DNA from: Albula goreensis
Taxonomy: Eukaryota > Chordata > Actinopteri > Albuliformes > Albulidae
Direction: 5' to 3'
DNA length: 64,000 bases
NCBI GenBank assembly: GCA_022829145.1
Contig: CM040764.1
Span: 18,782,237 to 18,846,236, forward strand
The position numbers were made by a program, and so were the translations under genes. The notes beneath the pieces are model-generated. The model was not told the DNA's origin, ran no database searches, and saw only the letters and a program-made list of their open reading frames with translations. Shown here piece after piece: positions 961-31,197 of this stretch (the stretch's first letter is position 1; the number at the start of each line of letters is the position of its first letter).

Positions 961-1459
961 AGCACGGATTCAACAAACGGCTCCCTTAAAGTGATCCAAA
1001 TACTCAACACTGTATAAATAAAACTAATTAAGCATTTGAATTTATCCAACCACCATAAAGAGTACAAATAAGATGAACAGCGCACTTACGCAGAACCAGA
1101 TGCCAGATATAGGCTATAGCCCGGCCCATGTGCAGAGTCACTGAACTGAATCACTGAATTGTGCAGTGGGTTGTGTGGTTGTGGATCATTGAACAGCATG
1201 ACTTTTTCCCCAAGATCTTTTGATGCTTTTCTTCCACAGTTCTGTTTGTACAGCTGATTTAACATCGATGTATCAGTATGGCATGTTTGAACACTGCATT
1301 TCCATTTTTGTGCTTTCATATTAGTTGCTACAGGTTTTTGTCTTCGTTATTGTTTCTTTATCTCTTGTGTGCAGAAGTTTATCATTAGTTTTTTGTTGCA
1401 TCAGTTCTTCTGATAAACTTGTGTTGAGAAGTCACAGCCCAGTGTTCTGCCCCCTGCAG

Positions 1460-1587
1460 TCAAAAGCCCTGCGAGAGCGATGGCTGCTGGACGGAGCGCC
1501 CTCTGCTGGCTCGGAGGAGGACGAGGCACAGAAACAGCTTCAGGAAGATGAGGCTAAGACCCAGAACCTAGAGGAGACCATTCTGAG
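1460..1587 (+). CDS. palm: palm coding exon (coiled-coil, SKALRERW block)
   Basis: The acceptor CCCCTGCAG and donor AG|GTGAGC bound a 128-nt exon that starts in phase 0 and ends in phase 2. It encodes SKALRERWLLDGAPSAGSEE and a glutamate/glutamine-rich helix ending TILR. This is the second half of the paralemmin N-terminal coiled coil. Confidence 0.93.
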
Positions 1588-4500
1588 GTGAGCTGGGACT
1601 GGAATCAGCAAGATTTATGTGAGCAGGTTCATTAAAATATTACTACAAGTAAAAAGATAAATTGTTGTGAATATATCTCGATGTCTCAGGCTGGAGCAGG
1701 AGCTGGAGGAGCTAGAGACAGGCGTGTCAGCTACCTCCACCAAGGAGAACCTGGCAGAGATCAGCATGAAGCCAATAGACGGTCCGGTAGACAGCCTGGA
1801 CACTGTGAGTCGCGACCCCACACTGCACTGATCACCAGAGGGACGCATGCAGAGTCACAAAGAATGTGACTTTAGGACAACTACAACAAACACTAAAGAC
1901 AACCACTCAATAGGCCATTGGCAAGATCAATCTTCCTCACCACTTGAAGTCAGAATGTTAGTACTTAAAGCATGTTTTGAAAATTCATTAAGGGACCAGA
2001 CAAGACATCATTTTCTGGTCTTTCATATAGAAATGGAGCACCCAAAATTCCAGTCACCAAATGGAACCTCCTGTAGTTCAGAAGCAAGCAGTACAGAAGG
2101 AAATACCTTCTGTCCAATCAGAGATTTCCTCCCTATAGTTGTATTTTTATGCCATAGTGTGAGTCATGGTGCTTTTTGGTCATGAATCTAAAGCTGCAGC
2201 TGAACAGATTCCCTGCTCTCTTTCCTTACAGACTCCTGCAACTGTTGTCACAGGTAAGAGTCATATCTCTGAGACTGTGTCCAAGGTAAGAGTCGTACGT
2301 CTAAGATGCTCTGACACTTCAGATTGAGTCAGTCATACTGAGCGACTCAGTAATATTTTTCAGATTCTCCTTATATGTTTGGAATTGCAGTATACATTGG
2401 AATGAAACCAAGCATACACAAGGGAGGTCCAGGAACAGGGCTGAGTGAAATGGAGAAAGTTAGTCATAACTCTCAGACTGTGACGTTTAGGAAGGAGTCA
2501 GTACTATATAGCCAATTAAACACATGGAGCATGTTAGTTAATGAGTCATCAACTAGAGTGACTCAGTCATCTGCAGCAACTCAGTCATGATAGTGAGTTA
2601 GTCAGAGTGAGTCAGTTATATAGAGCCAGTGAATCACATGGAGTCTGTCAGTCATATCTCTCAGACTTCAGCGCTGTTGTCTGCGGTGCAGAGGAGGAAT
2701 TTTAGGGTTACACCCCAGATGCTGTTTAATATCATCATCTCATTTCCTGTGACGGCACCCTCAGGCTCTCTGCTCTGAGAAGTGCTGAAATTCAGATGTT
2801 AGGCAGATTACCCTGAAAGTGATCACAGCCATTACCCATTATGTATTGATTTTTACGGGTTTTGAAATTGGACACCATTTGCGTTTAGCAGTGGATTTGA
2901 GATGAGTAAGACACAGGCACAGTTTTGTGAGAGAAATGGGGCCGCTTTATTTACATTTGAAACCCTATGTCAGAATTCTGGCCGGAGAATGTAGCGTTCC
3001 CTCTGTTTAGGAAAGTAGTGGGGAGCAGTCTCCTTTTTCCAGTTCGGACAAAACTCCCCCTCCCTCTCTCTCTCTCCTGTCTCTCTCTCCTGCCTCTACT
3101 TGTGCTGGAACACCACTCTGTCTCTCCACCTCTCTCTCTACTCATGCCCTGGCCTCGCTGCCCTCTGTCTCACTCTGTGGTCTTTAGAGGTCAAAGTTCA
3201 CAGCAGCCCCCGTGTGGACAGTCCCAGGCGTGGCTCAGATATGATGAAGGCAGGTGAGTCTGCGTCCCCTGCCTCGCAGATGCAAATGAATAAAATAAAG
3301 CGCTAAGGTTTTATGACCACTGTGCCTCTCTTTCCGGCCCCCTCTGCGCCCTGCAGCCCCTCCTTCACATAATGTGCCTCTGACAGACACAGCTCTGTGC
3401 CAGCAAGGCCGCCTCGCCCCAATTTTCACTCCGCTTATGTACTAGTGTTTCACTCTTCCTCTGTGGTGGCTGGGGAGCTGGGGGAAGGAAAGTCTCACCT
3501 TTCAAGCTGTGTATTTGTGTCGACCAGTTTTCATTCCCTTAGCAAATATATGAATACCCCCCCCCAGCAAGTAAACCCAAAGCTTCCTCTTAATCATTGC
3601 TTTCTCTTTCTTCGTGTCACATTAGAGATTATGAATAAGCTGGGGTTCATTTGAAGAGATTAAATTTTATAATTAAAAGAATTATAATTAGACTGAATAA
3701 AGTCCCTCTGTTAACTGCTCACCCACCAGTGTTTATTATTCAGCCCACTCCTAATATGTAATATTGTTGCGCTGTTCTTCTGTTAGTATCTACTAGTGTC
3801 TTCCATCTCTAAGCCTATGTTTTTCCATCACTCAGTCAACCAATCAACCAATTGAAATGAAATATGGTTCATATGTGTAATACGGCATTACCGACTGAAG
3901 TACAATTGCATTCAACTGAGGGAAAAAGATGCACAGTGACTACAGAGATCAGATTGCTTCAGCAGAGGATGTAGAATGTACAGTATATTTTATCTGTGCA
4001 TGTGCTGTAATATGTGTCCTGATGCAATGAAGTTCAGTTATAGAATATAAATGTAAATGGTGCTGTGTGGTATTTAGGATTTATGTATTATAGTTATACA
4101 TACATATTATAAGTATATCTAGTATGTAAGACAGTAATATTGTAAAATATATAAGACTTCAGTAGAATATGCTAATTTGTAATTTAGTGGATCATTGTCT
4201 GTCTATTTGTAAATTTGTCCCAGTCGGAGTAGTTGATCCTTCTGCGTATATGTGTGTGAGTGTGTTTGAGAGAGAAAGAGGGAGAGAGAGAGTGCATTTG
4301 CGTGTGTGCCTACAGACTGATAGTTCTAAGTTGGCGATGCATGCTAAGTATGCAATTGAAATGGCTTTCTTCTAGGAAATAAATCCCCTACACATCCAAG
4401 TATCTGGCATATTGGCTGTTGCCATGGCATCACTGTTAGGCTCCACAGGTGGCTGCTGCCGTATCTTCCCAGCCATTGGTTGCCACTTTTGTGCATCACG

Positions 4501-7500
4501 TCACTTTCCTGGGAATCCTAACCTTCTTTTTCCTGTATCTCTGAAACTGCCTCAGTGCTCAGCAAGAGCATCGCCCAATCTTAGCGGCCATTTTCACAGA
4601 CCAGAACTCACTGACCACAGAGAAATATCACTTCTCTTAGCAGTGCTGTATAAGAGTGCCTTTTTGTCCTCCAGGTTGTGAGTGAGCAAAGGTGCATGAG
4701 CGGTTGAGGGTGACAGCTTTACTGAGTGAGTGAGGGTTTGGGCGAGTGGGTGGGTCAATGAGTGAGAATATGTGAGTGAGACTGAGTGAGTGAGTGTTGA
4801 GTGAGCTGGAGGGTGAGTGCGTGAGGGGGTGTGAGTGAGTGAGTGAGTGAGTGAGGGGGTATGAGTGAGTGGAGTGGTGAGTGAGGGGGTATGAGTGAGT
4901 GAGTGAGTGAGTGAGTGAGTGAGTGAGGGGGTATGAGTGAGTGAGTGAGTGAGGGGGTATGAGTGAGTGAGTGTAGACTTGGACACTGAGAGGAAGTTCT
5001 GGCTGCGTTATTGAAAGTATGGTCACTCAGAGCAGAGGGGTGTGCTGGCTGTCCTCCTGTTAGACTGTCTGTAGAGAGAGAGGGGGCCAGATGCAGATCC
5101 TAACCTCCCCTCTTATTGATGCTCCAGCGATGTACTCTGTTGAGATCACCGTTGAGAAGGACAAACTCACAGGAGAGACTAAAGTGCTGTCTACCAACAC
5201 AATGCTGCCGAAAGACCTGTCTCACCAGGCCGTCAAAGTGTATGAGGATGACCTCAAAGGTGACAGCCCAGAAGCCATGCAAAAAAAAGTATGCTCAGTG
5301 CAGTACACTTTACGAGAAGTGTCCGAGATGCGATCAGTTATCGGCACATCTTTAACACCTTGTGTCCTGCAGAGGAGGAAAAAATTCTAATTTTGGGAGC
5401 AAACCCCTTTCATGGTATCGATTTATTTACTTAAACTCAGGATTTAAAGAAGAAATTAAAGAAATGTTTCCCAACAGATTGCTATTTTATGTTCTATAAA
5501 ATCTTTGTCACAGAATTATAAAACAGTTGCAGCCACTGTTGCTGTAAAAAAACTCCCAAATCTTATCTTTTAATGTACGCCAGTCATCGTGCCTTTTATT
5601 TTAAAAAGTGCAGTTTTTGTGTGGATATTTCACTTCTCGTAAAGTGAAAACAAAAATGTGCGTTGACCCCAGCATTGCTGCTGTAGAGGCGTGGCAAATG
5701 ATTCCTGAATGATAACTCTAACCTCATCCTCTCCATCAGACCTCAAACCTTCCCCACACCTCTTACACCACAGATCTCAAACCTTCCCCACACCTCTCAC
5801 ACCACAGATCTCAAACCTTCCCCACACCTCTCACACCACAGATCTCAAACCTTCCCCTCACCTCTCACACCACAGATCTCAAACCTTCCCCACACCTCTC
5901 ACACCACAGATCTCAAACCTTCCCCACCTCTCACACCACAGACCTCAAACCTTCCCCACACCTGTCACACCACAGACCTCAAACCTTCCCCACGCCTCTC
6001 ACACCACAGACCTCAAACCTTCCCCACACCTCTCACACCACAGATCTCAAACCTTCCCCACGCCTCTCACACCACAGATCTCAAACCTTCCCCACACCTC
6101 TCACACCACAGATCTCAAACCTTCCCTCACCTCTCACACCACAGACCTCAAACCTTCCCCACACCCCTCACACCACAGATCTCAAACCTTCCCCACACCT
6201 CTCACACCACAGATCTCAAACCTTCCCCACACCTGTCACACCACAGATCTCAAACCTTCCCCTCACCTCTCACACCACAGACCTCAAACCTTCCCCACAC
6301 CTCTCACACCACAGATCTCAAACCTTCCCCTCACCTCTCACACCACAGATCTCAAACCTTCCCCACACCTCTCACACCACAGATCTCAAACCTTCCCCCA
6401 CACCTCTCACACCACAGATCTCAAACCTTCCCCTCACCTCTCACACCACAGATCTCAAACCTTCCCCACACCTCTCACACCACAGATCTCAAACCTTCCC
6501 CACACCTCTCACACCACAGATCTCAAACCTTTCCCCCTCACCTTCTCACACCACAGATCTCAAACCTTCCCCTCACCTCTCACACCACAGATCTCAAACC
6601 TTCCCCCACCTCTCACACCACAGATCTCAAACCTTCCCCACACCTCTCACACCACAGATCTCAAACCTTCCCACACCTCTCACACCACAGATCTCAAACC
6701 TTCCCCACACCTCTCACACCACAGATCTCAAACCTTCCCCTCACCTCTCACACCACAGATCTCAAACCTTCCCCACACCTCTCACACCACAGATCTCAAA
6801 CCTTCCCCACACCTCTCACACCACAGATCTCAAACCTTCCCCACACCTCTCACACCACAGATCTCAAACCTTCCCCACACCTCTCACACCACAGATCTCA
6901 AACCTTCCCCACACCTCTCACACCACAGATCTCAAACCTTCCCCACACCTCTCCACAGATCTCAAACCTTCCCCACACCTCTCACACCACAGATCTCAAA
7001 CCTTCCCCACACCTCTCACACCACAGATCTCAAACCTTCCCCACACCTCTCACACCACAGATCTCAAACCTTCCCCACACCTCTCACACCACAGATCTCA
7101 AACCTTCCCACACCTCTCACACCACAGATCTCAAACCTTCCCCACACCTCTCACACCACAGATCTCAAACCTTCCCCACGCCTCTCACACCACAGATCTG
7201 AAGCCAGGCTGGCTTATTATGACCCATTAGATTGGCTGGCACTTACTTAGATCACACTGGCTGACAATGTTTAGATTTTGGTATTTGGTAGGTAAATGTG
7301 CATGAATTCTTCATTATTCTCCATTATATTATCAGAGGTGGTTACTCAGCATAGGAATGTAAATGCTGCTAAAATCACATCATGGCTTATAAAATTATTC
7401 TATCTCATTAAATGCTCTGTGGGACGTATATTGTCAGACGGCAGGTAAAGGCCCAGGGCTTGATTGAGATTTGGACTTTTAGTGGCAAGGAGTAATGAAT

Positions 7501-9037
7501 AAAAGCTACAGAAAGTGGAGCCATGCTAGGTAGATTCAACTGATGTAAAGAGTTAAATATTTCAATGTGCTGAAACGAAATATGGATGAAAATGTTTAAC
7601 TATTTAAAGAGTCCTGACATTTGATTTGGAGAAATTCATTTGTGATATCAAATTCTGTGTAAAGTAGAGGCTTTTTATTCTTGTTAGAATATATGGCCTG
7701 GCAGATAACTTCATTCACAGAGCTTTTATTACAAATTTTCCAGTGGCTTCAAAAATGGTAAATGAGCAGTGGAAAAAATATTAAAATCATACAAGGAAGT
7801 TTTATATTCTGTTTGTTGCTAATAAATAATTCCTCATGACTGGTTTTATGCCTACGGGTATCTCTCTGTCACAGTCCTGTTTTCATATTTATTGATGATG
7901 TCATAAATATGAACTGTGCAGTGCTGTTTATCTATGCCTGAGAGCCAGACAGACAGTACTTCACTACCCAGAATCCAGTGCTGTATATCCCCCACATTAC
8001 CCCCAGGACTGTTCACTCTTCTGTTTTGCCTGCTCTGTATGACTGCTTTATTGCAAGTGGGAGCTTTTGCTGTTTTCATTGGTGGCTACCTGCAGCCTGC
8101 AGACCAACTAGCCTTTGCTGCCAATCATTTGCTGCATTTTATCCCCTCCCCGCTGTGACCCAACACTTTGCCAGTATGTGGGAGGAGTCTGGCATTACAG
8201 TGTATTTTCCAAAGCATGTGGTGGATTTTAATAAAACCTCTATGGACTTAGATCTCTCTTCTCACTTCTCTCTGTCTTCCTAATCTCTCCATTTCTCCCT
8301 CTCCATCTCACTTGTTCTCTCTCTCACCCCTTTTATCTCTGGTATCTGTCCCTCCCTCCTCCTCCTTTGTCTGTCTCACTCTCTTTGTCTCTCTCCATCT
8401 CTCAGTGGTGCATGAGGTGCGTGGGACAGACTCCTCTCTGGAGAACGGAGTCCGGCTGCTGAGCTCCTCAGAGGTGGAGGAACTCATTCACAAAGCGGAT
8501 GCAGTCGATGCCGGAGGCACGCCGGAGAAAACGGCCGTGGCTGAGAAAACGGTGGATATTCCAGAGAAGGTGGGCGTGGCAGGAAAAGCACAAGCGGCAG
8601 ATGCAGCATGTGTTTCAGGTGAGGGCGAGACCCCTCCCGGTGCAGAGGAGGGGACAGCAACACCGCCAGCAGAAGCGGCAAAGACCCCCAAGAAGGAGAT
8701 CACAGGCCTGGAAGCCAAGCCCACGGCTGGGGTCCCTCCCACAGAGACGGCCGGGGCCACGGCGGAGAACCCGGTCTCCATGGTGTTCATGGGGTACCAG
8801 AACGTGGAGGACGAGGCCGAAACCAAGAAGATGCTGGGGCTGGAGGGCACGGTGAAGGCCGAGGTGGTGCTCATTGAGGACCAGGCCAACGGCAAAGAGG
8901 AGCAGGCCCCGTCCAATGGGAGCACCGCTGAGGTCAAAGGTCAGGAGGTGGAAGGGGAGAAGGCAGAATCCGACCCCGTGGCAGCGGAACTCAACACCAA
9001 GGAGAAACGACCCTGCAAGTGCTGTTCCATCATGTGA
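1460..9037 (+). CDS. palm: Paralemmin-1, six 3' coding exons (partial gene, N-terminus outside window)
   Basis: Coding exons are 1460-1587, 1690-1804, 2232-2253, 3188-3253, 5128-5259 and 8406-9037. They join in phase into 364 codons plus stop. Paralemmin is a lipid-anchored plasma-membrane phosphoprotein linked to membrane dynamics and cell-shape control, abundant in neurons. Recognisable family blocks, in order: SKALRERWLLDG and an acidic coiled-coil tail; AMYSVEITVEKDKLTGET; SSSEVEELIHKADAV; FMGYQNVEDEAETKK; and the C-terminus KCCSIM, a CaaX box with adjacent cysteines for prenylation and palmitoylation. The human protein is 387 residues; here about 45 N-terminal residues (start codon and first coiled-coil half) must lie left of base 1. 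Reading frame, phases and motifs all agree, so the family call is very secure. Whether it is the palm1a or palm1b duplicate cannot be told. Confidence 0.95.
1690..1804 (+). CDS. palm: palm coding exon (end of coiled coil)
   Basis: The acceptor GTCTCAG|G completes an arginine codon from the previous exon. The donor is ACT|GTGAGT. The 115 nt encode LEQELEELETGVSATST followed by KENLAEISMKPIDGPVDS. The KEN match to human paralemmin and the phase fit support it. Confidence 0.9.
2232..2253 (+). CDS. palm: palm 22-nt micro-exon
   Basis: This very short exon lies between TTCCTTACAG and GTAAGAG and encodes TPATVVT plus one base. It is needed in phase: the previous exon ends in phase 0 and the next begins with two bases completing a GAG codon. 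A second copy of the same donor (AGGTAAGAGTC) lies 32 bp downstream but would put the rest out of frame. Sequence conservation alone is too weak to prove the exon. Confidence 0.72.
2254..3187. other. palm intron with scattered AGTCAT / CTCAGACT repeats
   Basis: GAGTCAGTCAT, AGTCATATCTCTCAGACT and similar words recur between 2260 and 2670 as an imperfect, irregular repeat. From about 3050 to 3150 a pyrimidine-rich tract leads toward the next acceptor. No exon seen. Confidence 0.5.
3188..3253 (+). CDS. palm: palm coding exon (SPRRGSDMMKA block)
   Basis: The acceptor TCTTTAG and donor GCAG|GTGAGT bound 66 nt, phase 1 to phase 1. The peptide EVKVHSSPRVDSPRRGSDMM plus KA lines up with the human segment ending GSPMMKA, just before the AMYSVEI block. 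Confidence 0.9.
3254..5127. other. palm intron, unique sequence plus a GAGT array
   Basis: The first 1.4 kb is AT-rich unique sequence without a recognisable feature. The last part carries the (GAGT)n array described separately. Confidence 0.6.
4721..4976. repeat. (GAGT)n tetranucleotide array with GAGGGGGTAT interruptions
   Basis: About 250 bp of GAGT repeats are broken at fairly regular places by GAGGGGGTAT. It gives long Thr/His/Ser/Leu open frames on the minus strand that are repeat artefacts. Confidence 0.9.
5128..5259 (+). CDS. palm: palm coding exon (AMYSVEITVEKDK core block)
   Basis: The acceptor GCTCCAG and donor CAAAG|GTGACA bound 132 nt. It encodes AMYSVEITVEKDKLTGETK followed by VLSTNTMLPKDLSHQAVKVY and EDDLK, the most conserved block of the paralemmin family. 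The apparent open frame running on past 5259 is intron. Confidence 0.96.
5739..7200. repeat. 34-bp minisatellite, about 43 copies, in palm intron 5
   Basis: The unit reads CTCACACCACAGATCTCAAA then CCTTCCCCACACCT (34 bp), mostly identical, with a few short or long units and T/C or A/G variants (AGATCT versus AGACCT). Since 34 is not a multiple of 3, the three frames rotate and an open frame of 513 codons (5709-7250) results. Its peptide is a repeat translation, not a gene. On the + strand nearly every unit has a pyrimidine-rich run ending CACCACAG, resembling a 3' splice site. Confidence 0.96.
7201..8251. other. palm intron 5, unique AT-rich part
   Basis: No repeat, exon or RNA gene was recognised between the minisatellite and the pyrimidine tract of the last exon. 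Confidence 0.5.
8252..8405 (+). promoter_or_regulatory. palm: Extended AG-free pyrimidine tract before the last palm exon
   Basis: No AG dinucleotide occurs from 8252 until the acceptor AG at 8404-8405, and the strand is almost wholly C/T. CCTAATC (branch A near 8283) fits the branch-point consensus, about 120 nt upstream of the exon. Long pyrimidine tracts of this kind are typical PTB-family binding sites. Confidence 0.6.
8406..9037 (+). CDS. palm: palm terminal coding exon with CaaX box
   Basis: The acceptor ATCTCTCAG is preceded by 152 nt without AG. The exon opens VVHEVRGTDSSLENGVRLLS and ends CKCCSIM-TGA at 9035-9037. It carries SSSEVEELIHKADA, then an alanine/proline/glutamate-rich low-complexity stretch, then KKEITG and FMGYQNVEDEAETKKMLGLE. 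The last four residues CSIM are a CaaX prenylation signal. Human PALM has an alternatively spliced ~44-residue segment around REITG; here that stretch lies within one large exon that has internal donor-like and acceptor-like sites. Confidence 0.95.
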
Positions 9038-23283: not shown

Positions 23284-26200
23284 ACAGTGGAGCTCGTTTT
23301 GGATAGTGCATTGTAATGGTGATGGTGGTAGAAAGCAGGAAGGAAGGGAGGGCGTTTAGGGCCCTGTGTGAGGCCGTTTCCGTAGTTTTTCCTGTAATAA
23401 AGGCCCTCCCTGCTGAAGCATTCCGCTCATAATCAGCTACGGCATGCCAGAGCTCCTTCAGCAACCTGCACAAAAGGGGATTGTTATAGGTACACAACCG
23501 TGTGTGTGTGGGGGAGGCGTGTGCTTGCGTAGCCGCATGTGCCCCTGTTGCAGAACCCTGCAGGTGGCAGTGCTGGCACTGGTTGTTGGTTAGGTTGTGT
23601 AGGGGCGGATTGTAGACCTTTATCCATTTTATCTGTCAGTTTGGGGTGTAACATGTTAACCGTGCAGCAGCACTGTTATATCACCCCTCAGCCGTCTGAT
23701 GCTGCATTCGGTAGTTGCTTGGTAAGGTGGAGGGGGCCGGATGTTAAATCACCGCGTGTATTGGCGGTGGGTGGGCTGCATCTGTACATCCAGCTGCAGT
23801 ACTGTAGCTGGTCCTGCCTCCCTGTAGGTCTGTGTTATTAATGAAGGCCCATGTTACAGGAGCCATTCAGGTCTGCTGATCAGAGGAGGTCTTTAGTATC
23901 AGGTTATTGAGGTGTGTGTGTGTGTGTGTCCATGTGTGTCTGTGTGTGTCCATGTATCAAAAATATTCTGCAGCTTCTAGCTCTCCCATCAAAGCACCTT
24001 TGCAAGCCCTGGCTTGTTGGATCAGTTCTTGTCTGAAAAATGCTTAACCCCGTTTTTGTTTTTTGTTCTGTATTATATCTCTCACTCTGTGGTGTCCTCT
24101 TGTTGCATGCTTTGATCTGGTAGAAGGTCCTCATCGTTTACCATTGATCTTGTTTCCACAGAGGGGGTCTGACGAGCTCTTCTCTTCCTGCCTGTCCAAC
24201 GGATCCTATATCATGAGCGGTTGGCTTGCCTTTCTCAAACTCTATACTGGTGATGGGAGAGTGAGGTTTCTTGAATCCCATGAGTGGAGCCACAATACGC
24301 TGTCAATCAGAGTTGTTTTAATCAAATAGTTTTGCTTCCCTTAAAAAAAAAATAAATAAAATAAAAAATAATGGACTAAATCAGTTGGAAAAAATCATTT
24401 TGAATTTCAACTACAAAATCATTTTGATTCAGTATGTTAGGAATTTTTATTGATGTTGAAATTGTCAATAAGTCCTTATCAAGTTGAATATCAAAAGAAT
24501 AGTCCTTGTCAGAAGATTGACATACAAAAACAGGATCAATGTGTTCCTTTTAAAAGTCATTTTTAAATATTTGCATTGAAAGATTGATTTTGAATATTAA
24601 GTGTGTTTTAATTGTATATGTTGCTCTTGGATCAGTAATTGTTGCCTCTGGTTCAGAGTGAGTTGTTGATAGTATATTGTAGCTCCACCCATTTTCTCCA
24701 CCCTTTCTCCAATCACTGCTCTGAACATGAGATGTTTATTTCTGAAATTATTGAGCAGGATCAGTGTGGTTATTGGTTTGTGATCTTTCCACAGCGAATG
24801 GCAATGACAGCAAGAAGTTCAAAGGTGACATCAGAAGCCCTGGCATTCCGTCACGCGTCGTACACGTGCGCAAATTGCCCAATGACATCAACGAGGCTGA
24901 GGTCATCTCTCTGGGCCTGCCCTTTGGCAAAGTCACAAACTTGCTCATGTTGAAAGGAAAGAACCAGGTAATTGCCTACATGCACTACATTTCCCAACAT
25001 TCAGCCTTTTGCACATATTCTCAAAGGAAAGAACCAAATAATCTGCACAACATTTCCCAGCATTCAGTGTCCACCACACATTCTATGCAGCCCAGCATGT
25101 CATGACAGCTGTGAACCAGGAACCTACCTATTCTGTAGCTAACAGTGACCCGTGTATGTTTACAGGCCTTTCTGGAGATGAACACAGAGGAGACAGCTCA
25201 GACAATGGTGAGCTACTACTCCTCAGTCACGCCAGTCATCCGGAACCACCCCATATTCATGCAGTACTCCAATCACAAGGAGCTGAAGACTGACAACTCG
25301 CCCAATCAAGTGGTGAGTTCTGAATGATGTCCAAAGGGTTTGAGTGTCTTTCAGTGTCATCCATCATCACCTCCAGGTGGCTCATTGGGTAAAAGCATGT
25401 GCTCTCAGTGCATGAGTTTACTTCCTGTTAAATGTTGCTCTTGGAGCAGGAGCAGATTGCAAAGCAACAGGAGTAATAAAGGAATTATGGGTTAGCAACT
25501 TGAACTTGAACGGGGGGCAAGAGGTTGCAGGTTTGACTCTCTGGAGGGAGTACTGCCACTGCAAGCAGCAAGCAGACACTCAAGCATTTTAAAGCATATG
25601 ACGTGTGTGAAATTTGCTCTGCATGTCTGTTTGTAAGTTGGCCTCTTAGCCAGGGTGCTAAATGCATTGCAGCTGGCATTCCCTGACTGATAGAACAGTG
25701 GATTTACTGTGCCTAGCACATGACTGAAACGGTATCCAGCCTGCGAAGCATTAATGCCACGCACGCAAGCACACTGTCCTGCAGATGTGTGTGTGTGTGT
25801 GTGTGTGTATGCACGCAGGTGTGTACGAGCACGTGTGCATTCGCTGTTGGGGAAAATTAAACGCAAACCTCCCCTTCCGAGAGGGACATGGTCAGTTAAC
25901 AAGGATAACATCCCCTTAAAAATCGGTTATTCCCATGGTTTTTGGCCCCCTCCCATATGTAACCATGCACTTCCAGATGTATGGCGGATCACTGCTTTTC
26001 CACAGGTACTCAACTACACGTTGAGTGTGGTGTGTACATGTGTCAGACCCCAATAAGACCTTTATAGTATCTGCCATGTGACCTTTGTTTTGCTCTTCCT
26101 GTGTTTGTCTTTTCTCCTTCATAGAGGGCGCAGGCTGCCCTGCAAGCGGTGAATGCGGTCCAGACAGGCGGCATGGCGGTGGGGGGTGTGGCTGGGGTTG

Positions 26201-29200
26201 AGGCGTCTGGCATGGGGGGCCAGAGCCCTGTCCTACGGGTCATTGTGGAGAACCTGTTCTACCCTGTCACCCTGGACGTCCTGCACCAGGTACCCCACTC
26301 TATCCTGCAGCGCCCCAATTTATTTCCATGTCACACTGGCAAGATCCTCATTTCAGTCACTGTTAGAAGTTCTTTTTCATTTGGCAGACATCTTAATCTT
26401 GTCTTGGATGAGGTGCTGGGCTTGTAACACAAAGGTTGTAGGTTTTAATGAAATATGACAATGGCATTTGCTTTTGTATCTGAGTAAGGTACTTAAGCTC
26501 AGCTGCCTCAATAGTGTCTAATTTTTGTTTTTCATTGAAAGTTGTTTGTTTTTTTCCCCCACTCTGAATAGGTTGCTGCTGGGTGTCCATGTATAATAAA
26601 GTCAAAATTCGGTGTTGTCTCCTTGTATTTATCTTGTCTGCTAATCTCAGTTTTTAAACCTTCTGCAGATCTTTTCCAAGTTTGGCACTGTGCTGAAGAT
26701 CATTACCTTCACCAAAAATAACCAATTCCAAGCACTTCTCCAGTATTCTGATGCACTGACTGCCCAGCATGCCAAACTGGTGAGTTGTGATTGGTTTAAA
26801 GACCATCAGGGAGGGCACTGATTGGACAGTTGACTGACTTATCATAAAGTTGTTTTACCTGAGGGCTCCATGCCATTGTTCAAAATGGATGAATGGGTGC
26901 ATTCTGTGAGAAGCTGCCAAGTCTATTTTGGGGACATGACTTGAACTGTATCACCTGAGTATTTTTCAAATCTGCAGCATATGATTGTTTCAGATCAGGG
27001 AGTATGTCATTATTGCTTCATGCATTTTTGGGATGTTGATACTGTGTAAATGTCGGCTGAGTCTGACAGCATGCGTTGGCTTCTTGCAGTCTCTGGATGG
27101 ACAGAACATCTACAACGCCTGCTGCACCCTGCGCATCAGCTTCTCCAAGCTCACCAGCCTCAACGTCAAGTACAACAACGACAAGAGCCGTGACTACACC
27201 CGGCCCGACCTGCCCACGGGGGACAGCCAGCCCGCCATCGACCACCAGGCCATGGCTGCCGCAGCCTTCGGTGAGGCCGCACCTCTGAACCCCACCTGCT
27301 CAGAGCCCCATAGGCTGGGCTCAAGATGAGGGCAAAGTCAGCCGAAGCTGCACTGCTGGAATGCACTCGCTGCTATACCCTGGCATTCACTGTTCCCCTT
27401 TGAGAACCTTTGAATGTGCTGTTTTGTGCTTCTCCTGGCACTTGATTAGTTAAAGCAGCTTCGAGTGCATCACGGTAAAGGCCATGATTGTACACATGTT
27501 GGCTGTGATTGCTCCGCCCCCTCACTGTAGGTCCTTCCTGTTCTTCCAGGTGCTCCTGGGATAATCTCTGCTTCCCCATATGGTGGGGCCGCCCATGCGT
27601 TCCCACCCACCTTCGCCATCCAGCAGGCAGGTGAGTGACGCGTCCGCTGGTACATTACTGCTCTCACCTGCCATCACCTTCTGGGTTCACAGTGAACACT
27701 TAAGCTGCTGAGGTGCCTGCACACTGTCTGCCGAAATGGGTCTGTGTGAGATGGTGTCTGTAAGCATTTGGGTATGTGAGCGGGTCCTCATAGCGTAGGG
27801 TTGTGTGTATGTCGTCACAGTGCCCGGGATGTGTGTATGTCCTCACTTTTCTGGGTTCTGCATTTGTGTTTGTAGGTCTGACGATGCCTGGTGTTCCAGG
27901 GGCGCTGGCATCACTGAGCATGCCCAGTGCTGCTGCCGCGGCTGCTGCAGCCGCAGCTGCAACCCGCCTCGGCATCCCCAGCATGAGTGGAGGCCATAGT
28001 GTCCTGCTGGTCAGCAACCTCAATCCAGAGGTCAGTGCCCCCTCTCTCACTTCACCCCATCTCACTCTCACTCATCTGTCTCTCCCTCTACTACTCTACT
28101 CTCCTCTACCACATCTCTACTACTCTACATCCCTCTATCTTTCTCTTCCTCCCTCTATCTTTCCCCTCCATCTCCTTTTACTGAGGCATAGTTTCCAGTG
28201 CAGTTCTGTTGTATTCTCCATGACTTCTGTGGAACTAACAAGCTGCTGCTGTTTTTAAGGGCAACTTTCAAGTCTTCATTAAATTAAATTTTGTGTTTTT
28301 AAGACCGTTCTGCTCACCCAGACTTATTTCTTGTTACATATCCTGGCTGGCATGTTGCATAGCAGGGAGCAAGCACTTCAGTCAGGGCACCAGTTGACTG
28401 TAGATCAGTGCTGCAGAGCTGTATTCCTGGAGGGCTGCATTGTTTGCTGAAAGGAAACTGAACCTGTCACCCATTTCTGCAGGAAAAGAGATTTGTGGGC
28501 CCTGTAGCCAATCAAACAGTCGTGTTGAAATGCCCTAGAATCAGTACACTGGTCCTTCAGGAATGGAGTCATGCAACCCTGCTGTATATCGAAGTCACAT
28601 TATGTCTTGCGGTGTAATGGTATGACTTAATGCAGCATGTTCACAAATGATGTAAGATGGATAGAAGCGAAATTCATTCTGTGTTTGCATTAATTTGAAT
28701 TAATTGCAGGGGTGGAGCTGGCACTCCCATTTCTACCTGTTTAGGGCTGTTCCAGATTTTATTGCATACTGATATACTGATAGTTTGACCTGGACTGATC
28801 CAAACAGCTAGGCATGGGGGTGCAAGCTTCTGTCAGGGCTTAGTTAGGGGTCTACCTTCTCAGTATGAAAGCCAGGACCTCCCGGCTGAATGTGAATAAT
28901 TGTCTCTTCATGTTCTGTTCCATGGTAATTTTTTTTTTCTCCTTCTCCGTGTTCCTGTAGGTTTGGGGGGTCATTACCATTTATAATTTATTAAACCATA
29001 TTTACTAGCATTTTACTCTGCAGACTGGAGCATCACATCCCTTTTGTGTGTACTGACCTTGTTTTTTACCTCCTTTTTTTTTCTCCTTGTTTCTCTCCCT
29101 CCCTCCCCAACCCCACCCCCTATCCCCCCCTGTCCTCTACTCCCTCTTTTTTGTTTTAATACCTTGACCTGGATCATCTTTTGCCAACTGACTGCACACC

Positions 29201-29685
29201 CCTGTCGTCCCACCCTCCCTCCCCCAACAAAAATTTTAAAATGTGCTCCCGTGTTGAAATGCACAAAAAATCTTTGCAACTACAAACATTGTGGGGGTGG
29301 AAAAAAAAATTTGTTTCTAAACGAAACCAAAATACCCCACCACTCCCTCCACTCTGTGGGACACCTCCACCCCTCCCCCTCTGTCTCCTCCTCCCCCCAC
29401 CCCTTTCTCCCCCCCCCTCCCAAATGTCACCCATCTCCATGATCCAACCACGCGGTTTTTTGGCCCATTTCCTGTGGATCTGCTTGGCTGTGGACATGTT
29501 GGACCTCCACTGTCCTGTTCCATCTTTCCCTGTCTATTCCCACTCGCTGCCTTCCTCTGCTGTCTTAAAGAACGTAACGCCCCAATGCCTCTTTACTCTC
29601 TTCGGTATGTTCTATTAGCTTCTCTTTATTTTATCATTATTATGTTATTGTTGTGTTTAGCATTATTACTCTTATTGGTTGCTCC

Positions 29686-29726
<41 letters not shown>

Positions 29727-31197
29727 TTAGACAACTTGAGTGCCTTATTTTTTAATTTTTTTTTTTTTTATTTTTTTTTAGTTGTGTGCTTTTTAAAATG
29801 GGGTCTAAAAAGCTACGGCAGTTTTCCTGGCTTCATGTGTATGCCTGTGCTCATGCTTTGGACTCAAACTCTTGAGAAATAAGTCAGAAAACTAATTTTG
29901 ATGGCCGAAAAAAAGGCACCCAAACCTGTTTAGGTCTCTGGCACAAGGAAGCTTTTTAACTCATAGTTCCAACACTTGGAAACACAATGGAAAATCCTGA
30001 TTTTCTTAATTTGATGTGAATGAATTTCCAGAAAACTGCTGTAACTCTTTGCCTCAGTGATTATTTTTTTTTTTTTTCCTTTTTTCAATCTGCTCAGCCA
30101 TACTCTTAGTTGGATTTCTGCATGTTTGATTTGTTTTGCATGTCATAAATGAATAAAATTCAGCTACTTGGGTTTATTTTGAGTAAGTTTGCAAGCACAG
30201 AGCTTGTTTTTTGCATAGTCAGCTGTTTGAGTTTCAGCTCTTTCCTTGAGTTTAAACTGTCTCTCAGCAGCCTTCACTGGCCCCCAACCCAACCTTATCA
30301 TACCACCACCCCCAGTCCCCAGTACCTCAGTTCTTCCTTTATTTCATTAATCCACATTTAATTAGCTGGACAACTTGAATTAACACGCATAAAGTTTGAA
30401 AATCACAACAGCGTCATGCAAATGAACTTGTGTAGAGTTACATTGTTTTGCAGTGGGTTGCTGTCTCCTTTTAAATCTCTGGTTGGAGGGACCGTCATCA
30501 GTTTGTTCCATTTGCTAGTGAACTGAATATGTGAATTTCATGAAGGCAACATGCTATTTTTAGTGTCTGTTAAGTTTGCTGTTGGCTAACACATTGCAAA
30601 AGTGTGTAGTGTGCTCTGATTAAGCTGAGCCAGTATTGTTACAAGATGAAGTTTGAATTGAATGGTAGATGTCCACAGCTGTTTGGTTGTATGCTTCTCC
30701 ATCAGCTCGGCACTTCATTTCCAGTCAGCACCCCAACCCTTTAACTTTATCGGGGTTCTAAGGCTTTCAGTCACGCATTACTGTTACTATATTGGACTCT
30801 TTGGGCTTCAGTAGTTTGAGGAAATGAGATTAACTTTGTGTGGGAGGGAGAAACGGCAGTGTGGGTGTGGCTGTGAGTCTCTGTGGTTGATTGGTGTGAG
30901 ATAAGAAATAAAGCTCAATCCAGGAAGTAAGAGTGTCTCACGGTCTTATCCCACCCCCTGCAGGTGTGTACGGTGATGTCATGAGGGTGAAGATCTTGTT
31001 TAACAAGAAGGACAACGCTCTGGTGCAGATGGCAGACGGGACCCAGGCACAGCTCGGTACTGCCCCCTTTTGGCTACCCCCTCCATGTTTTTGACTTGCG
31101 TTGCCATTACTCCATTTTCTCACCCTGATGTTTGTTGCATATTTAGCAGATGTGGTGTAGCTATCCTGCTCATAGTGATCGACAGTGAAGAGGAACT

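Follow-up and report, generated by a model that had tools for sequence, protein, structure and literature searches.

A 538-nucleotide AG-free zone and a predicted distant branch point precede the 34-nucleotide exon of a ptbp1 gene in the fish Albula goreensis

The stretch of DNA that was analysed (64,000 nt of Albula goreensis contig CM040764.1, hereafter the window) contains on its forward strand a ptbp gene. Thirteen coding exons of this gene, lettered B to N, were mapped between positions 24162 and 33805 by tblastn with PTBP probes, splice borders, one open frame and RRM domains; the map starts downstream of the first exon or exons. When the C-terminal half of the protein (RRM3-4) was compared with solved structures, human PTBP1 was the best match (373 bits) and PTBP2 scored 348 bits, while PTBP3 gave no match among the solved structures searched. 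Measured against the PTBP probes, exon K clearly favours PTBP1 (90% identity, with PTBP2 at 81% and PTBP3 at 84%). The same probes give a mixed paralogue signal in the short exons: exon J is closer to PTBP2, exon L has 86% identity to PTBP1 and PTBP2 alike, and PTBP3 has a slight lead in the last exon. Separate ptbp2-like and ptbp3-like loci are present in the same genome. Judged from its sequence, this is a ptbp1 gene rather than a ptbp2 or ptbp3 gene.

Paralemmin-family exons (Pfam PF03285) lie upstream of ptbp1 at window positions 1325-1588, 5064-5387 and 8252-9034, which agrees with the position of PALM in human, where it lies near PTBP1. Between the paralemmin exons is a 34-bp minisatellite (5737-7199; about 43 copies, 95% matches), in which each of three forward frames stays open over some 500 codons. 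The window gave no match to Rfam at gathering thresholds or in a tRNA scan. Pattern searches of prokaryote and viral collections gave 112 and 12 matches, respectively, none of which was confirmed by tblastn, as is expected for a vertebrate gene.

Three exons of the gene bear on its regulation, all on the forward strand. Exon I (27876..28030) encodes a segment that ends in LVSNLNPE and closes in frame with GAG (donor GAG/gtcagt). Exon J (29571..29604) follows the acceptor AG at 29569..29570, has AG and GT borders and adds 34 nt (11 residues plus one base) that align with RVTPQSLFILF of human PTBP1. In the normal frame, exon K (30964..31056) then reads GVYGDV. Exon J has the pattern of PTBP1 exon 11 in its length of 34 nt, its place before the GVYGDV exon and its residues of the xVTPQxLFxLF type, and these features identify it as the equivalent of exon 11 in mammalian PTBP1. 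When exon J is skipped and exon I is joined straight to exon K, the frame of exon K shifts and the product ends in NPEVCTVMS followed by a stop codon; the three junctions that remain lie 72, 289 and 367 nt downstream of this stop. The limit for nonsense-mediated decay is usually 50-55 nt before a junction, and by these distances the premature stop would lie past it. The first-pass annotation had proposed both that this is a 34-nt exon of ptbp1 and that it is the counterpart of mammalian exon 11, the skipping of which triggers decay. The AG and GT borders, the length and the best structure match bear out the first proposal; the premature stop and the layout in this and the related copies support the second.

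Upstream of exon J lies an AG exclusion zone at 29031..29568 on the forward strand. It consists of 538 nt without any AG (540 by the definition of Gooding and coworkers in 2006) and is flanked by an AG at 29029-29030 and by the acceptor AG of exon J. From 29031 to 29616 the acceptor is the sole AG. The zone is three times as long as the next AG-free run of the window, which measures 179 nt, and the other 11 mapped introns of the gene have AG-free zones of 18 to 74 nt. AGs are back at normal frequency immediately upstream of the zone, at -542, -549 and -564 from the exon. The zone would hold 34.5 AGs at the AG density of the window and 11.8 for its own composition. Every one of 20,000 whole-zone shuffles, and of 20,000 more that were confined to 30-nt blocks, contained AG, and the reversed dinucleotide, GA, occurs 12 times against 11.8 expected. 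Other dinucleotides depart from the single-base expectation (CG, GC, TA and AT are below it; AA, CC, GG and TG are above it), and AG is the only one absent. The zone is 70% pyrimidine (375/538) and includes C/T-rich blocks. Its middle is richer in A, with 62 A and 23 G in 230 nt; 6.2 AGs are expected there, and 8 of 20,000 shuffles of the middle were AG-free.

Branch point candidates were scored with the weight matrix published by Gooding and coworkers in 2006 (Table 2). The best candidate is TACTGAC at 29051..29057 on the forward strand (7.52 bits), a predicted distant branch point whose A, at 29056, is 515 nt from the exon (-515) and 27 nt past the AG that ends the zone, near the 5' end of the zone. 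TACTGAC occurs five times on the forward strand of the window, which gives a probability of about 0.002 for a chance hit among the first 30 nt of the zone. It adjoins a pyrimidine-rich region (29058..29165, forward strand, 88% pyrimidine), and the other ptbp1 copy and the two ptbp2-like copies described below contain the same motif. For a distant-branch-point exon, Gooding and coworkers look for a large zone (those of at least 150 nt are examined), a strong branch sequence close to where the zone starts, an adjacent polypyrimidine tract and, further upstream, AGs at their normal frequency; here the zone is 540 by their definition, and the branch sequence, the tract and the upstream AGs are all present. 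Several elements of this arrangement had been described in the first-pass annotation. Its statements that no AG occurs from 29030 to the acceptor at 29569 and that TACTGAC, with its A at 29056, lies 515 nt from the exon at the far end of the zone are exact, and the U/C tract that it placed directly after the branch sequence is the region of 88% pyrimidine. Its estimate that about 30 AGs would be expected by chance agrees with the window average but is too high for the local composition, for which about 12 are expected. The idea that RNA structure brings the branch point close to the exon was rejected, as the folding of 29044-29604 was no better than that of shuffles (33 of 100 folded as well; z -0.54).

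A second candidate within the zone raises an alternative, namely that the branch point is distant but is chiefly CCTTGAC (29162..29168 on the forward strand, A at 29167, -404), or else the lower-ranked TTTTAAT at -412 (5.64 bits) or AACTGAC at -380 (5.39 bits), and that the exon works in the same way over a shorter distance. CCTTGAC scores 6.94 bits, the two ptbp1 copies do not differ in the block TTTTTTGTTTTAATACCTTGACC, and more than one mapped branch point per exon has been reported for other long-zone exons (PMC2991248). However, CCTTGAC scores below TACTGAC and is not directly followed by a pyrimidine tract (CTGGATCATCTTTTGCC), and if it were the branch point, the absence of AG from -515 to about -420 would be needless. 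In the human study (PMC1431707), mutation of UACUGAC at -351 abolished the inclusion of PTB exon 11, and mutation of CCUUGAC at -51 was without effect. Chief use of CCTTGAC or of the two weaker sequences is unlikely, and TACTGAC at -515 is preferred as the predicted branch point.

The genome that holds the window (932 Mb) was searched with the exon-L peptide, which gave six matches with E values up to 0.001. The six ptbp loci, assigned by residues in exons J to L, comprise ptbp1 on C24 (the window) and C13, ptbp2-like loci on C24 and C13 and ptbp3-like loci on C1 and C4. Each of the three ptbp genes thus appears twice in the genome. In the C13 ptbp1 copy, AG is absent for 465 nt, TACTGAC is at -434 and CCTTGAC at -353. 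The exon of this copy is also 34 nt long, and when it is skipped the frame runs into VYMVMS followed by a stop codon. The exon itself starts with AACG in the C24 copy (29571-29604) and with AGAG in the C13 copy (L007:7320-7353). A DNA search of the genome with 29040-29200, by a method that omits simple repeats and very common words, returned the two ptbp1 copies only.

The C13 zone was AG-free in 0 of 20,000 shuffles. Chance or simple sequence as the cause of the AG-free run was rejected on the shuffles and on the second ptbp1 copy. A related possibility is that pyrimidine-rich or simple sequence lacks AG as a by-product unrelated to splicing, and that the branch point is conventional. The pyrimidine content of the zone fits such a reading, as does the weak signal from the middle of the C13 zone taken alone, for which 461 of 20,000 shuffles were AG-free. 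However, whole-zone shuffles of C24 and C13 alike never yielded an AG-free sequence, the A-richer middle of the C24 zone gives a strong signal, and none of the nine best branch candidates (eight of which are inside the zone) is closer to the exon than -147 (3.64 bits). A by-product origin is extremely improbable.

In an alignment of the two ptbp1 zones, 138 of 446 aligned bases differ and 104 columns are gapped, and AG is in neither sequence. The branch point and its tract, the identical block noted above and about the last 120 nt are alike between the copies, and the middle is hardly alignable (22.5 to 50% identity in 40-column windows). The segment just 5' of the zone (28970-29050) is also similar between the copies despite the AGs there. 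When the changed and inserted bases were redrawn from the zone composition, a mean of 5.8 AGs arose into C13 and 8.1 into C24, and no AG arose in 29 of 20,000 and 3 of 20,000 redraws, respectively, a result that hinges on the alignment and on a simple model. Across all 16 dinucleotides, AG alone was strongly low in both directions; into C24, TA, GC and CG were also low.

The C/T-rich blocks invite the suggestion that the zone serves mainly to give PTB or other CU-binding repressors a long platform to land on, with the absence of AG as a secondary effect. CTCTT is over-represented in exon J (two occurrences, reached by 5 of 500 shuffles) and just downstream of it (three occurrences, 7 of 500), but these are two signals among 54 uncorrected tests, and TCTT downstream of exon J is not enriched (three against 4.5 expected). 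In the zone itself, dense PTB motifs were not found with the nine motifs tried. UCUU-type motifs number five against 6.0 expected for the composition, and in the first 108 nt of the zone they are scarce (one against 4.1 expected). A platform also gives no reason to forbid AG in the A-richer middle. As the main role of the zone, a platform is very unlikely, although it would be compatible with a distant branch point and AG scanning.

The arrangement is partly shared by the other ptbp genes. Both ptbp2-like copies have TACTGAC followed by at least 408 and at least 290 nt without AG, up to a stretch of N. The stretches at these loci (L010 and L011) are of 132 and 130 N and presumably span the acceptor and exon. 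The sequence TACTGACCT is identical in the two ptbp1 and the two ptbp2-like copies. In 113,505 bases, made up of the window and five stretches that surround the other copies, the exon J sites of the two ptbp1 and two ptbp2-like copies have the four longest runs without AG, where the ptbp2-like runs include N bases, and the next-longest run is 203 nt. The two ptbp3-like copies (L008 and L009) have a matching 34-nt exon with zones of just 40 and 30 nt, and one of them has TACTGAC at -34. The short zones are in line with human ROD1 exon 10, for which an apparently conventional branch point at -21 is reported (PMC1940037).

Exon J very probably corresponds in this fish to the regulated PTBP1 exon 11, with a distant branch point predicted at -515, AG scanning and autoregulation. 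By analogy with work in mammals, the first step of splicing would probably occur at TACTGAC, beside its own pyrimidine tract and independently of the 3' AG, and the spliceosome would then take the first AG downstream. Because any AG in between would be taken in place of the acceptor, selection would have purged such AGs. At high levels of PTB (or of a relative), the 34-nt exon would be skipped, exon K would be read out of frame, and the mRNA would become a substrate for nonsense-mediated decay, which would lower PTB. In such an arrangement, a splice site can be run from hundreds of bases off and a splicing regulator can limit its own amount. The genome adds a natural test in the form of two ptbp1 copies whose spacers have drifted with AG absent from both, and of two ptbp3-like copies that are without the arrangement, as in mammals.

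The comparison of the ptbp1 copies also allows a tentative and rather doubtful proposal. The spacer may be held at both ends, with its middle limited to little but the absence of AG, so that after duplication it is free to change in length and sequence (-515 in one copy and -434 in the other). Its length may then act as a dial for skipping, and the two ptbp1 copies may autoregulate at different set points. In zebrafish, ptbp1a and ptbp1b are described as co-expressed, with one dominant (PMC9304896), which bears on the proposal of set points without testing it.

The within-genome comparison of ptbp copies is new here. What had already been published is the phenomenon, including gene, exon and branch sequence, and its occurrence in a fish. 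The original report is by Wollerton et al. (2004). Gooding and coworkers defined AG exclusion zones and described PTB exon 11 as a distant-branch-point exon (PMC1431707), and, according to a review, both Xenopus laevis and Fugu rubripes have been seen to have the PTBP1 loop (PMC7764535). Zebrafish RBM4 proteins have been tested on a mouse PTB reporter (PMC3602429). A literature search found no report of this exon in another fish in the titles and abstract openings among the matches listed.

Long AG exclusion zones and distant branch points are also known from OGDH exons 4a/4b (PMC7969005) and from other mapped exons (PMC2991248); the OGDH exons differ from exon J in being mutually exclusive, and a length of about 280 nt is named as usual for a zone. 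Human nPTB (PTBP2) exon 10 belongs to a paralogue and has the same layout, with a zone of 438 and a predicted branch point at -389 (PMC1431707), and its skipping leads to decay in human (PMC1431707; PMC1940037). The Fugu PTB exon 11 is likewise a fish exon whose branch point is predicted to be distant and whose AG-free zone is very long. By the published figures its zone (590) and branch point distance (-566) are each longer than those found here, and the zone of a human tyrosine phosphatase sigma exon is listed at 1126, with its branch points unproved (PMC1431707). On these figures the earlier suggestion that the branch-to-exon distance may be among the longest known was rejected. Human PTBP1 exon 11 shares with exon J its length of 34 nt, a UACUGAC that lies beside a uridine-rich tract towards the 5' end of the zone and several weaker branch candidates, and its skipping is tied to decay in human (PMC1431707; PMC1940037). 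The two differ in scale, the human zone being 381 with its branch point at -351 and the zone described here being 540 by the same definition, with the predicted branch point at -515.
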